A DNA stretch of 64,000 nt from Alphaproteobacteria bacterium (GTDB lineage: Bacteria > Pseudomonadota > Alphaproteobacteria > JANQMY01): NCBI GenBank assembly GCA_028289425.1, contig JANQPL010000017.1, positions 124,001 to 188,000 of the forward strand. Direction: 5' to 3'. Position numbers and translations under genes: made by a program. A model generated the notes under the pieces. The model was not told where the DNA came from and ran no database searches. It worked only from the letters and a program-made list of their open reading frames with translations. Positions 26,665-49,799 of the stretch are shown here, one piece after another (position 1 is the first letter of the stretch; each line of letters starts with the position of its first letter).

Positions 26665-26754
26665 TGTTGCCCCATCGCTCCCGGGTCGAAGAGTTATCTC
26701 AAGGTAACAGTACGAACCCAACCCAAAGAGTCAAACCCTCCGGAATCCACACAT

Positions 26755-27035
26755 CAGTGAGGGGCTTCTGTTGCCCGGCGCCCCTCAAGCCGCGCTTACC
26801 TAATTATTAGGCAGCGAGCGCCATTTCGTTATCATTGGCACTTGTAAAAATGGTCCGATATCGGTGGTACCATGCCGAGCAAAAGAAACACCTTTAGACG
26901 CTCGTCGATCCTATTTCGCCCCCAAAACCTTAATGCGCTAAAACCCTTAGTTCTGGTGGAGGCGCCGGGTACCGCCCCCGGGTCCGATACGCTTATTACG
27001 TGCTCGTTTATCGCCATAGCCGGTGCGACCGGCAC
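26755..27035 (-). ncRNA. ssrA: tmRNA, circularly permuted two-piece form
   Basis: Rescues stalled ribosomes and tags the nascent protein for proteolysis. On the minus strand, the acceptor piece comes first and ends at 26954 with CGCCTCC-A-CCA; its T arm is CCGGG-GGCGGTA-CCCGG. After an excised segment of about 30 bases, the coding piece begins at 26923 with GGGGGCGAAATAGGATCGAC. GGGGGCG and CGCCTCC form a 7-bp acceptor stem with a G-U third pair, the alanyl-tRNA synthetase identity element. The tag reading frame (26839 down to 26807) encodes ANDNEMALAA followed by TAA. The acceptor-first order is the alphaproteobacterial permutation. The outer ends are approximate: the 5' end is placed after a TATAAT box and the 3' end after a GAGGGGC / GCCCCTC hairpin (26759-26786). 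Confidence 0.93.
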
Positions 27036-27039
27036 TTTT

Positions 27040-27045
27040 ATTATA
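27040..27045 (-). promoter_or_regulatory. ssrA -10 box
   Basis: Perfect TATAAT on the minus strand, 5-7 bases before the inferred 5' end of the tmRNA acceptor piece. The -35 region is weak (TTTAAT at 17-bp spacing), so the assignment rests on the -10 and position. Confidence 0.6.
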
Positions 27046-27142
27046 GTGTTTCCAAACGGTTAATTAAACCCTTCATCGGCGCTACATTGGTGCGCCAAAC
27101 TCTGCTACATTCCGAAAGAGATTCCTCTGATCGCCGTCAAAC

Positions 27143-46497: not shown

Positions 46498-47010
46498 ATG
46501 AGCGAACGGGAAAAATATAAAGACTTTGATTGGGACCTGCCGGACCCCTTTGCAATTACAATTACCGTTCAAGTGGGTGACATCGACAATTATGGCCACG
46601 TAAACAATGCCGTCTATGTGGGGTGGCTTGATGCCTGCGCCTGGCAGCATTCCGTAAACGTCGGAGTGACAAAGGAAGACTGCGACCGGCTTGGCCGAGG
46701 CATGGTCGTTCGCAAAACACAAATCGAATATGTCCGTCCTTGTTTTGACGGAGAAAAGGTCTGGATTGGGAATTGGGTGACATTGGCGGATGGCCGGTTA
46801 AGAGCAAATCGGCGCTTTCAGATCGTTCGTGACAGTGACGGTGCAACCTTGGTGCGGGCGCTACTTCACTATGTATGCGTCGACCTTGAAACGGGCCGTC
46901 CATCAAGATGGCCTGTGGAATTCAAAGAACGCTACGTGGTGCTCGACTCAGTGGGGTCGGAGGTATCTCAAGCCGGCTATTCTTTCCAGCCGGGTGTGGA
47001 GCGGGCATAG
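46498..47010 (+). CDS. 4HBT-superfamily acyl-CoA thioesterase
   Basis: 170-residue hotdog-fold protein. The motif VQVGDIDNYGHVNNAVYVGW matches the catalytic segment of the 4HBT/YbgC group (Asp, then GHVNN), and VRKTQIEYVRPCFDG continues the fold. Located 91 bases after rodA. The substrate is unknown. Confidence 0.83.
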   Translation: MSEREKYKDFDWDLPDPFAITITVQVGDIDNYGHVNNAVYVGWLDACAWQHSVNVGVTKEDCDRLGRGMVVRKTQIEYVRPCFDGEKVWIGNWVTLADGRLRANRRFQIVRDSDGATLVRALLHYVCVDLETGRPSRWPVEFKERYVVLDSVGSEVSQAGYSFQPGVERA

Positions 47011-47401
47011 CGCGGCCCTCTAAATCTGCATCAGAATTCAAGGCCTTCGTTCCCAATAGCGAATTGCGAAATCTCAATTCACCGCCGATGGCCACCAACA
47101 AAGTGGTGTAGCGTCCTAGGGAGTAGGTGTAGTGGTTTACCGCACGTGCTTGTCGTTGTTGATAGAGGGCGAGCTTAAGCCTGCGCAGTATGGCGTCACA
47201 GACGTCAAGACTCACTTGCTCCAGCCAATCTGCCGGGCAGTAGATCAAGGTTGGGATCAATTTCTTCCGCCGATAGCCTGGAATGCGCGCCCGAATTGAC
47301 CGCCGAAACGCCGCTCTGGCCGAACTCCTCTTCTGTTCATTCGCCTCGTTCTCAAATCGGCCGGCAACGGCCAGCGAACTGTCAGTCGGTTGGTGATACA
47401 T
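46922..47401 (-). CDS. Uncertain hypothetical protein, possible leftward gene of the phage islet
   Basis: Open frame of 159 residues. Its last 88 bases overlap the 3' end of the thioesterase gene antisense, which argues against the C-terminal part. The middle (ILRRLKLALYQQRQARAVNH then YTYSLGRYTTLL) is basic and looks helical, and it lies downstream of the leftward promoter and operators at 47637-47678. It may be a real small phage-type gene whose 3' end has been lost; no family is recognised. Confidence 0.3.
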   Translation of the reverse strand: MYHQPTDSSLAVAGRFENEANEQKRSSARAAFRRSIRARIPGYRRKKLIPTLIYCPADWLEQVSLDVCDAILRRLKLALYQQRQARAVNHYTYSLGRYTTLLVAIGGELRFRNSLLGTKALNSDADLEGRAMPAPHPAGKNSRLEIPPTPLSRAPRSVL

Positions 47402-47410
47402 GGGTCACCT

Positions 47411-47515
47411 CTAGAGCGTTTCCAGGTGAAGTGGAATCCGGTTCACCGTTCGGAAACGCGCAAAACAAAGAATCTGGAGCCGTTTTGCGTTTCTAAGAAA
47501 ACCAAACGGCTCTAG
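47411..47515. repeat. MITE-like palindromic repeat
   Basis: About 105 bases bounded by near-inverted ends, CTAGAGC-GTTT and AAACGGCTCTAG, enclosing a GGTGAAGTGGAATCCGGTTC segment and CGCAAAACAAAGAATCTGGA. This composition resembles a dispersed intergenic repeat that is abundant in many Rhizobiales genomes. It lies in the leader of the leftward transcript of the phage islet. No transposase is present. Confidence 0.75.
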
Positions 47516-47522
47516 CCCATTT

Positions 47523-47592
47523 GCGCGCCTGTCTCGGCGCGCAGACATCCGGGGGCCGAGCGGCGAGGGGAGGTGGGACGCTCAGCCCCCGG
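47523..47592. other. Two consecutive strong hairpins
   Basis: GCGCGC / GCGCGC (47523-47542, 8-base loop), then CCGGGGGC-C-GAGCG paired with CGCTC-A-GCCCCCGG (47549-47592, 13 paired bases with one mismatch, 16-base loop). Both are in the leader of the leftward transcript, downstream of its promoter; they could act as terminators, attenuators or be part of an inserted element. No T-run is present. Confidence 0.5.
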
Positions 47593-47636
47593 CAAACCAC
47601 CCATCGATCGGGGGGACATCGATGAGATAGGCATAG

Positions 47637-47664
47637 CTTATATTATTGGTCAAACCTATGTCAA
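47637..47664 (-). promoter_or_regulatory. Leftward promoter of the phage islet
   Basis: On the minus strand: -35 TTGACA (47659-47664), 16-bp spacer, -10 TATAAG (47637-47642). The spacer is filled by operator-like site A, and site B abuts the -35, so a repressor bound there would block it. Confidence 0.6.
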
Positions 47665-47678
47665 TTGGTAAAGCCAAT
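47645..47678. promoter_or_regulatory. Two operator-like 15-bp sites (left)
   Basis: Site A is ATTGGTCAAACCTAT (47645-47659) and site B is ATTGGTAAAGCCAAT (47664-47678). They have the same consensus, ATTGGTnnA[AG]CCnAT, with dyad symmetry, and their centres are 19 bp apart. The same motif occurs at 48402 in the rightward promoter. Confidence 0.6.
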
Positions 47679-47696
47679 AAATCGTAGGGCAGGGAA

Positions 47697-48323
47697 TCAA
47701 TAGTGACGAACTGCGTCGGTCACTCGGCCCACCACGTCTACCGCCTCTTCCGGAAAGATCGTTTCATGGGAGGGGTCCGTCGAGAATGGCTCAAGGCGCG
47801 GTGGGTTGTTTCGCCATCTTTTAAGTGTCGCGCGGCCATCCTGGCGGAACACGTAGAACTTGTTGTCCACCAATTCTTTGTCGGAATAATCAATTATAAT
47901 TATAGTATCCGGCGGAAACTCTCGGTTGCAAGATGTTCCGCTTACTTTAAGCGCAATGAGAGTGGACACGTCGGACGCAATCGCGATGAAACGCTCCGCG
48001 TCACCCGGCTGATATGGGTCTTCTATCGACACGAACTGGCCTGCCTCCACCCAACTGATCAACGGAACTGCACGTATCGGCTCCTTGATCGGACTAAGGT
48101 CGGCCCCCCAATCCACATTACTCTCAGGGTTGCCGAATTCAAGCCAAATCGGCGTTACGGACAAAACTTTTGCGAGTAAGGTTATTTTGTTTCGTTCTGG
48201 GTCATAATCACCATTCTCCCATTGGGAGATTGTCGCTTGTGTTACGCCTAAACTGGCGGCCAGTTCTTTTTGGGATCGGCGCTTTTGCTTGCGCGCATGT
48301 CTTATTCTTTCGCCGATCGACAT
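47697..48323 (-). CDS. CI-like self-cleaving repressor (XRE helix-turn-helix plus S24 peptidase)
   Basis: 208-residue phage-type repressor. The helix-turn-helix is at about residues 5-57 (RRSQKELAASLGVTQATISQ); the LexA/CI-type autocleavage peptidase covers the C-terminal part. The likely scissile bond is Ala94-Gly95 (SWVEAGQF), the nucleophile Ser131 (VSGTSCNREF), and the general base Lys168 (RATLKRW). All catalytic parts are present, so RecA-stimulated self-cleavage, and hence SOS induction, is expected. Flanked by two outward promoters with matching operator sites. Ends with HY; an intact gene. Confidence 0.88.
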   Translation of the reverse strand: MSIGERIRHARKQKRRSQKELAASLGVTQATISQWENGDYDPERNKITLLAKVLSVTPIWLEFGNPESNVDWGADLSPIKEPIRAVPLISWVEAGQFVSIEDPYQPGDAERFIAIASDVSTLIALKVSGTSCNREFPPDTIIIIDYSDKELVDNKFYVFRQDGRATLKRWRNNPPRLEPFSTDPSHETIFPEEAVDVVGRVTDAVRHY

Positions 48324-48340
48324 GACCGTGTCTCAGTTTC

Positions 48341-48355
48341 AATTTGGGGCAAATT
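48341..48355. promoter_or_regulatory. Palindrome upstream of the repressor start
   Basis: AATTTG-GGG-CAAATT, perfect 6-bp arms, 18-32 bases before the repressor ATG on the minus strand. It differs from the ATTGG-type sites, so it may be a site for another protein, a 5' leader stem or a chance palindrome. Confidence 0.35.
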
Positions 48356-48392
48356 GTAATTTATCCCAATACATCTGCATAAGCTATGCCTA

Positions 48393-48421
48393 TTGAAATG
48401 TATTGGTTTAACCGATATATT
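48393..48421 (+). promoter_or_regulatory. Rightward promoter of the phage islet with embedded operator
   Basis: -35 TTGAAA (48393-48398), 17-bp spacer, -10 TATATT (48416-48421). The spacer contains ATTGGTTTAACCGAT (48402-48416), the third copy of the 15-bp operator-like motif. Directs transcription of the genes at 48484 and 48726. Confidence 0.65.
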
Positions 48422-48483: not shown

Positions 48484-48726
48484 GTGATCACACCCGACAA
48501 TGCGGTCGTGTTGACCGATACCGATGCAGGAAATCGAACAATCGTCGCCCATCTTGGGGGGCGTGAACTCACTCTTCGCCACCATGAGCGAACTTATCGG
48601 GTTGGGTTTGCGGCGTCTCCTTCTGAAACCTGGAGAGTGTTCACCCATTGGCGACCGGCGGCATTGGCATTTGCCATGCTGTATCACACCGAAAAATCCC
48701 TCTCCAGCCTGGAAGGCCAAGCATAA
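48484..48726 (+). CDS. Hypothetical protein, phage islet
   Basis: 80 residues, no recognised family. GTG start at 48484 with AAAGGAAAA upstream. Soluble, mixed composition (ERTYRVGFAASPSETWRVFT is the most structured part). Its TAA overlaps the next ATG (TAATG), and it lies 63 bases beyond the -10 of the rightward promoter, the place where an early or Cro-like gene would be. No helix-turn-helix is visible. Confidence 0.55.
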   Translation: MITPDNAVVLTDTDAGNRTIVAHLGGRELTLRHHERTYRVGFAASPSETWRVFTHWRPAALAFAMLYHTEKSLSSLEGQA

Positions 48727-49307
48727 TGGCTCGGCGCGGACGTAAACGGTCTCTCCATGCACGGCGCCGGCAAACCACCGTTCGGGGCCGGCGCCCGATT
48801 GATAATGGGACGGAATTGTCCATTCGGCGTCGGCTCGAACTGGTCGGCCGGGCCGATCCTGCTTTGAGCGACAGCGCACTCGGCATTCTATTCGCGCGCG
48901 ATTGGATCAACGAAAGCCAATATAAGGCGGGTTCGCTATTCGCCTCCTTCCGTCAGGCGGCTTACGGCAAGTCCTTTGCACCGGTTGCCCATTACGGCGA
49001 CTATGTGGATGACTATGTGCGTCGGTCGGCGGAGGACCGTTTGACTGAGAACGAGCCCTATCTCGTTTCCATGACGCGGGCCTATTTGCGCGGCGACCGC
49101 ACCTTGAAACAGGCGAGCAGCGGAATACGAAGTGTCACTTGGAATGTCAGTATACTGTCCATAATTCCCAATTGGGCGTTGCGGCCGTCAAGCGACGCCC
49201 TGAGTGTTTTGGAAGCGCAGCACCGAGAGGATTTGATCGCCGGCCTTGATCTTCTTACGGAGGAATATGGCACAAGCGCGGACCAGCGCAAAAAAAGTCG
49301 GGCGTAG
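48726..49307 (+). CDS. Hypothetical phage-islet protein
   Basis: 193 residues with an Arg-rich N-terminus (MARRGRKRSLHARRRQTTVR) followed by an acidic-to-neutral body, DPALSDSALGILFARDWINE and YKAGSLFASFRQAAYGK. The body resembles small proteins found in alphaproteobacterial prophage early regions, but no family name can be given. ATG 48726 overlaps the previous stop codon. Followed by a good intrinsic terminator. Confidence 0.6.
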   Translation: MARRGRKRSLHARRRQTTVRGRRPIDNGTELSIRRRLELVGRADPALSDSALGILFARDWINESQYKAGSLFASFRQAAYGKSFAPVAHYGDYVDDYVRRSAEDRLTENEPYLVSMTRAYLRGDRTLKQASSGIRSVTWNVSILSIIPNWALRPSSDALSVLEAQHREDLIAGLDLLTEEYGTSADQRKKSRA

Positions 49308-49463: not shown

Positions 49464-49799
49464 ATGCCCCGCAAATCTATTTCAAATGGAAAAGGCTCAG
49501 CACGTCCAAACGCGCGGCGGGACAATCACCGAGCTGCGATAGATGTACCAGGACTGTTGAAAGCGCTTGAAGCGCACGTTCTAGCCGAGGCCAGCCTTTC
49601 TGCGACGCACCTTGATGCACCCCCGTCCAAAAGAGAAGAGATGCGGCGGTTTCAAGCATTGAGCCTAGTAGTTGAACGAGAAGACGTGCCGCCATCTGAA
49701 TGGCCCAGCCTTGCTGCAAAAATTGAGCGGTATTTGGCAGAAGGGCGCGTTGCAGACGAAACATCACTTCGATCAATTGACGGTGGCGTTGCGTCCTGA
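49464..49799 (+). CDS. Hypothetical protein, possible small phage DNA-packaging-like relic
   Basis: 111 residues. The segment VPGLLKALEAHVLAEASLSATHL faintly resembles the start of small phage terminase-type proteins, but the rest does not continue the match, and the frame may be shifted. It lies beyond the terminator, so it would need its own promoter. Weak evidence. Confidence 0.35.
   Translation: MPRKSISNGKGSARPNARRDNHRAAIDVPGLLKALEAHVLAEASLSATHLDAPPSKREEMRRFQALSLVVEREDVPPSEWPSLAAKIERYLAEGRVADETSLRSIDGGVAS

Follow-up and report, generated by a model that had tools for sequence, protein, structure and literature searches.

The window analysed here, a stretch of 64 kb (G000:C12:124001-188000), comes from the genome of an alphaproteobacterium, which comprises 5.42 Mb on 20 contigs and is 99.75% complete. 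It carries a small islet lying between a thioesterase gene on the left and a flavin reductase gene on the right, and further genes to the left are read from their ORFs as what we take to be mreB-mreC-mreD-PBP2-rodA. The islet is found at a shared position in the congener G001, a metagenome-assembled genome (MAG PL25b_bin.64) of the same genus. This single genome, the sole other member of the source's family and order in the comparison set, is the basis for all statements on islet conservation, and class-wide homologue searches covered 385 genomes. Integrase, replication and particle genes were absent from the islet in an ORF survey, and neither att-like repeats nor a tRNA were found at its borders. 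Elsewhere in the window, ARAGORN reports a permuted-type tmRNA gene (26716-27046, minus strand) with the tag ANDNEMALAA. The genes and larger elements of the islet are:

46922-47401, minus strand: ORF-L, 159 aa, 46% to the congener ORF, conserved core at about residues 43-109
47404-47523, no strand assigned: palindromic repeat of a dispersed type in the gap from PL to ORF-L, with weak similarity to the Brucella sRNA BASRCI27
47546-47630, minus strand: predicted RNA of two hairpins whose loops are rich in C (GUCCCCCCG and UCCCACCUCCCCUCGC), heading the predicted PL transcript
47697-48323, minus strand: CI/c2-type repressor, HTH_3 and Peptidase_S24, 208 aa (Pfam, PHROG and P22 c2 alignment)
48484-48726, plus strand: ORF1, 80 aa, GTG start, 41% to the congener, C-terminal AALAFAMLYHTE conserved
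48726-49307, plus strand: ORF2, 193 aa, very probable divergent DUF6456/GafZ-family protein, start overlapping the ORF1 stop
49464-49799, plus strand: ORF3, remnant of a small-terminase-like protein of which only the N-terminal part, up to about residue 48, is left

Both domains of the repressor score above cut-off, namely an N-terminal Cro/CI helix-turn-helix (PF01381, E 1e-14) and a C-terminal S24 domain (PF00717, E 3e-11). The best PHROG match is the repressor family phrog_4 (E 1.5e-38), and the protein aligns at 31% with P22 c2, an alignment in which the cleavage site A94-G95 and the Ser/Lys dyad S131 and K168 coincide with those of c2, all being kept in G001. Between the two genomes, the repressor shows a dN of 0.08, a dS of 1.46 and a dN/dS of 0.056, and its dN is similar to that of RodA (0.07; RodA dS not computable). 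Judged by these rates, the repressor is under strong purifying selection, which argues for an inherited islet rather than a recently acquired prophage.

The repressor gene is flanked by two predicted outward promoters, PL and PR, and by six related 15-bp dyads, three per promoter:

47627-47641, no strand assigned: operator OL site C (start site/-10), ATAGGCATAGCTTAT; congener ATAAGTTAAACTTAT
47637-47642, minus strand: PL -10 TATAAG, identical in the congener
47645-47659, no strand assigned: operator OL site B (spacer), ATTGGTCAAACCTAT; congener ATTGGCTATGCCTAT
47659-47664, minus strand: PL -35 TTGACA, 16-bp spacer, identical in the congener
47664-47678, no strand assigned: operator OL site A (upstream, touching -35), ATTGGTAAAGCCAAT; congener ATTGGACAATCCAAT
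48379-48393, no strand assigned: operator OR site A (upstream, touching -35), ATAAGCTATGCCTAT; congener ATAAGCTATGCTTAT
48393-48398, plus strand: PR -35 TTGAAA, identical in the congener
48402-48416, no strand assigned: operator OR site B (spacer), ATTGGTTTAACCGAT; congener ATTGGTAATACCAAT
48416-48421, plus strand: PR -10 TATATT, 17-bp spacer; congener TATAAA
48423-48437, no strand assigned: operator OR site C (start site), ATAGGATAAACTTAT; congener ATAGGTAATTCTTAT

The dyads follow a rough consensus ATWRGY-N3-RCYWAT with 0-2 mismatches among the six arm positions of each, and the sites at 47627-47641 and 48379-48393 are exact inverted copies. In both clusters, site A abuts the -35 box from upstream, site B is nested within the spacer and site C covers the predicted start site. 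All six recur in G001 at the same relative places. A matrix built from the six G001 sites alone ranks the six window dyads 1-6 in the 64 kb, with 15.1-18.7 bits vs 13.1 for the next-best site, and the reverse test, in which the window matrix was run on the congener locus, likewise places the six G001 sites at ranks 1-6. Changes between the window and G001 are mostly matched in both arms, as in OL site B (ATTGGTCAAACCTAT vs ATTGGCTATGCCTAT). The presence of a repressor together with a predicted operator array is thus almost certain, and the repressor would bind these sites, presumably cooperatively.

The promoter boxes taken alone are not above chance (six found vs 4.9 expected), and the PL -10 TATAAG is devoid of the final T of the consensus -10; the weight rests on promoter conservation together with the operators. 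This conservation means constraint because synonymous sites between the two genomes are near saturation. Transcription probably starts at PL and PR. The sequence-only reading had described a phage-style immunity region in which a CI-like self-cleaving repressor sits between two such promoters. The repressor ORF and both promoters, TTGACA(47664-47659)-16 bp-TATAAG(47642-47637) and TTGAAA(48393-48398)-17 bp-TATATT(48416-48421), lie where it had placed them, and its three 15-mers are retrieved with 0 mismatches; these sites are real, but they were undercounted as six dyads are present. Its motif is not common, with four occurrences in the whole genome, three of them in the islet. The immunity region is borne out, with more support than that reading had given it, by the six conserved operators and by the intact cleavage site and dyad.

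Rightward, PR would direct the transcription of ORF1, ORF2 and ORF3. ORF1 has no Pfam, PHROG or NCBIfam match and is poorly conserved and fast-diverging (dN 0.65 between window and G001). It stands in the place of the gene for the DnaA-like GafY, which is absent; ORF1 shows no Bac_DnaA_C match, whereas GafY in locus L100 has one. A Cro-type second repressor was not found in the PR operon, ORF1 and ORF2 being without an HTH family match in Pfam, PHROGs and NCBIfam. ORF2 is kept by purifying selection (dN/dS about 0.09, with a large dS, between window and G001).

Pfam, PHROG and NCBIfam searches yielded no useful family match for ORF2, ORF3 or ORF-L, and PF20057 matches neither ORF2 nor any other protein of the source genome. 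Relatives of ORF2 occur in 12 further genomes of the 385 of the class: one is adjacent to TerL and portal genes in a short contig (G100, L061), one lies in another phage-like region (G079), those of G297 and G375 stand beside S24 repressors, and others are found alone among host genes. Two members of the family (L063 and L064, in G239 and G006) are located in small genomes beside tRNA nucleotidyltransferase-type and other housekeeping genes, a hint that the family may be more widely domesticated.

The profile of the ORF2 family (A7, 14 sequences) was compared with a DUF6456 profile (A8, 22 sequences collected with PF20057). Using hhalign, both profiles align with 97.7% probability and an E-value of 1.7e-12 over 133 columns, and the probability is 96.6% when GafZ-type members only are considered. 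Reciprocal HMM searches were run against 5,327 ORFs. With the ORF2-family HMM, DUF6456 proteins come directly after the family's own members, to E 0.09, before a first decoy at 0.14; with the DUF6456 HMM, 11 ORF2-family members precede the first decoy at 0.91, the window's ORF2 itself reaching only E 0.043. The AlphaFold model of ORF2 is of moderate confidence (pLDDT 76), and phage proteins are its best Foldseek matches, with a 'DUF6456 domain-containing protein' at rank 2 among viral matches (probability 1.00, E 1.1e-3) and sigma-70 region 4 folds appearing weakly below the phage matches. Foldseek against the PDB gave no meaningful match, tblastn of ORF2 and two relatives against 50,697 phage records found nothing, and neither did a search of IMG/VR with ORF2. 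Profile comparison and model together make ORF2 very probably a relative of DUF6456 proteins, and the domain is thereby extended to a family that Pfam does not recognise. GafA-type proteins are reported to carry the DUF6456 domain (PMC9638019), and GafZ, which in Caulobacter corresponds to the C-terminal domain of GafA, acts as a transcription antiterminator on the gene transfer agent (GTA) cluster (PMC11150451). By analogy, ORF2 may be active as a transcription regulator.

The G001 version of ORF3 matches 14 phage contigs, and in viral contigs the ORF3-type protein is encoded directly before TerL; in L044, TerL starts at the point where the relative stops. ORF3 in the window keeps the first 48 residues, the rest being replaced, so that a packaging function is presumably lost. 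The statement of the sequence-only reading that the islet lacks integrase and replication genes stands, whereas its lack of any structural gene does not, ORF3 being a truncated small-terminase-like gene.

A truncated ORF3, a fast-diverging ORF1 (dN 0.65) and an islet without integrase, replication or particle genes are also what a plain decayed prophage would leave, the repressor and its operators serving superinfection immunity only and ORF1-3 being passengers on their way out. A CI repressor alone can confer immunity. However, immunity alone requires neither ORF2, which is kept at a dN/dS of about 0.09, nor the leftward RNA, and both promoters and all operators are conserved despite near-saturated synonymous sites, so that plain decay is unlikely. 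Taken as a whole, these sequence comparisons point to a phage immunity region that has been kept under selection and encodes a GafZ-family protein in its right arm. The domesticated module proposed earlier thus holds for the repressor, the operators and ORF2, which combine purifying selection with a shared position in the congener.

Leftward, the predicted PL transcript begins with the two-hairpin RNA. Its fold has a z-score of -4.0 in the window and -4.7 in G001, vs -1.6 on the plus strand; 23 of the 23 pairs are kept in both genomes, six of them vary and one varies on both sides. The comparison of two sequences is support, not proof, for a conserved PL RNA fold. A terminator-like tail, ACTTTTTT, comes after the second hairpin in G001, and the window copy has no U-tract at this place. 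Rfam has no match on the PL RNA strand. Between this RNA and ORF-L, the repeat at 47404-47523 resembles BASRCI27 on the plus strand only weakly (Rfam E 6.5e-4, 30 bits, below the gathering score of 59.8), and the repeat that G001 has in the same gap is found many times over in both genomes. The ORF-L profile has matches in only three other genomes of the 385, one of them weak and with stops. Homologues in G004 and G139 (tblastn at these loci, E 2e-5 and 2e-4) lie directly downstream of a rogA-like gene divergent from gafY-gafZ. DUF6477 was considered for ORF-L but is not claimed at E 0.065.

The leftward RNA could itself be the main product of the islet, as a DNA-damage-controlled sRNA whose C-rich loops pair with the ribosome-binding sites of host mRNAs. 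The two C-rich-loop hairpins, their z-scores, the full retention of their pairs and the terminator-like tail after the second stem in G001 are consistent with such a role. Nevertheless, covariation is drawn from two sequences with one double change, no Rfam family matches on that strand, the window copy is devoid of the U-tract, and the second hairpin may be no more than a terminator of the repressor or PL transcript, all of which makes an sRNA as main product very improbable. The PL RNA may still have a function.

Targets of the GafZ-like protein were sought in the same genomes. Neither the source genome nor G001 yielded a DUF2460 gene or a PF04860 portal gene; the same markers were retrieved from G010 and from Caulobacter vibrioides, the genome used as a control. 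TerL was rejected as part of a GTA cluster, as its sole strong match in the source genome is in an integrase-primase-TerS-TerL element on another contig. With neither DUF2460 nor PF04860 portal genes, and with the sole strong TerL in an unrelated element, ORF2 is left without a visible target. That element (G000:C7:334045-342900, L122) has consecutive integrase, primase-like, TerS-like and TerL genes, with no recognised capsid or tail genes, and may be described as phage-satellite-like.

Further dyads of islet grade number at least six in the source genome and at least nine in G001, vs about 1.3 expected in each, an expectation derived from one 64-kb window. They are located as follows:

G000:C3:131541, C3:416903, C6:41224, C7:36045, C1:127362 and C12:270758: remote islet-grade dyads, with G001 counterparts L136-L152

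Six remote dyads share a downstream boxA-like sequence (GCTCTTTGA repeat; GCTCTTTGACAGGTGAAT-like), and two pairs occupy orthologous positions in both genomes, one beside a permease gene and the other beside a VOC/glyoxalase-like gene. This excess and the two orthologous pairs would fit a repressor that serves the host and governs a small, scattered regulon, the islet being only its autoregulated home. On the other hand, the remote sites are single and not in arrays, the six that carry the boxA-like GCTCTTTGA repeat may belong to a dispersed element or to another regulator, and the counts are lower bounds set against a null from one window; a host regulator of this kind is improbable.

The reading preferred here remains that of a retained immunity region controlling a GafZ-like gene. 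The CI/c2-type repressor would occupy the two three-site clusters flanking its own gene and shut off both outward promoters, PR serving the operon of ORF1 and ORF2 followed by the broken small-terminase-like gene, and PL a transcript that yields the two-hairpin RNA first and then runs toward ORF-L. When DNA is damaged, RecA would stimulate the repressor to cleave itself at Ala94-Gly95; repression would then cease, and both the GafZ-like regulator and the PL RNA would be made. SOS induction through cleavage is predicted from the intact site and dyad, and the whole mechanism, in which an SOS-cleavable CI represses a GafZ-like regulator, is given a probability of about 0.65. It is possible, if doubtful, that the islet goes further and forms an orphan, vertically inherited DNA-damage switch, in which the GafZ-like regulator and the C-rich RNA answer to the cleavable CI and remote operator sites are conserved in the host genome; such a switch would be a phage late-gene circuit taken over for the host, in a form close to the ancestor of rogA-gafYZ. 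The sequence-only reading is partly supported as an interpretation; the ORF2 family, the parallel with rogA-gafYZ and the structured RNA from the leftward promoter had escaped it.

Compared with lambda CI at OL/OR and P22 c2, the islet shares an HTH and S24 repressor with an outward promoter on either side, two sets of three operators whose centres lie about 18-23 bp apart, and an Ala-Gly cleavage site with a Ser/Lys dyad. It differs from both in its 15-bp ATWRGY-N3-RCYWAT-like operators at upstream/-35, spacer and start-site positions, in having no recognised cro, and in what lies behind PR, namely a GafZ-like gene with a small-terminase remnant instead of replication genes.

HTH and S24 repressor genes divergent from ORF2-family or DUF6456 genes are also encountered among host genes in G297, G375, G116 and G101. 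Unlike the islet, the pairs of G297 and G375 have a TerL within about 2.5-7 kb, and that of G101 has TerL and portal genes about 22 kb away. The regions G297:C9:361000-395000 (L123, L057) and G375:C5:6000-40000 (L058, L124), which come from different genera of the same family, have in common a TPP enzyme gene, the HTH and S24 repressor, the ORF2 homologue and TerL, with further phage-like and host genes interspersed, and are candidates for a conserved prophage or an unrecognised gene-transfer-agent-like cluster.

The origin of GTA control loci, in which a LexA/CI-like repressor stands beside a GafZ-type gene, is to our knowledge not clearly established. In Caulobacter, RogA, an HTH and LexA/CI-like repressor without catalytic residues, represses gafYZ (PMC9632790). 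As in the RogA-gafYZ system of Caulobacter crescentus (PMC9632790, PMC11150451), the islet combines a repressor with an HTH and a LexA/CI-like domain and an operon with a DUF6456 (GafZ-type) gene, and its layout is that of G004 and G139, with the repressor and ORF-L on one side and the DUF6456 gene on the other. Unlike rogA-gafYZ, the islet has no GafY and its genome no detected GTA markers (DUF2460, PF04860 portal); the target promoter of RogA carries GGAA-N4-TTCC repeats, whereas the islet operators differ and form a six-site lambda-like array, and the catalytic dyad, intact in the islet repressor, is lacking in RogA. In the best reading, the retained immunity region is an architectural parallel to the rogA-gafYZ control loci. 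A GafZ-like gene under a phage repressor, repressor/DUF6456 pairs in several alphaproteobacterial lineages and ORF2-family genes by terminase together suggest that rogA-gafYZ derives from phage immunity and late-gene control. With a GafZ-family gene under a catalytically intact phage repressor and a lambda-like operator array, the islet makes this phage origin testable.
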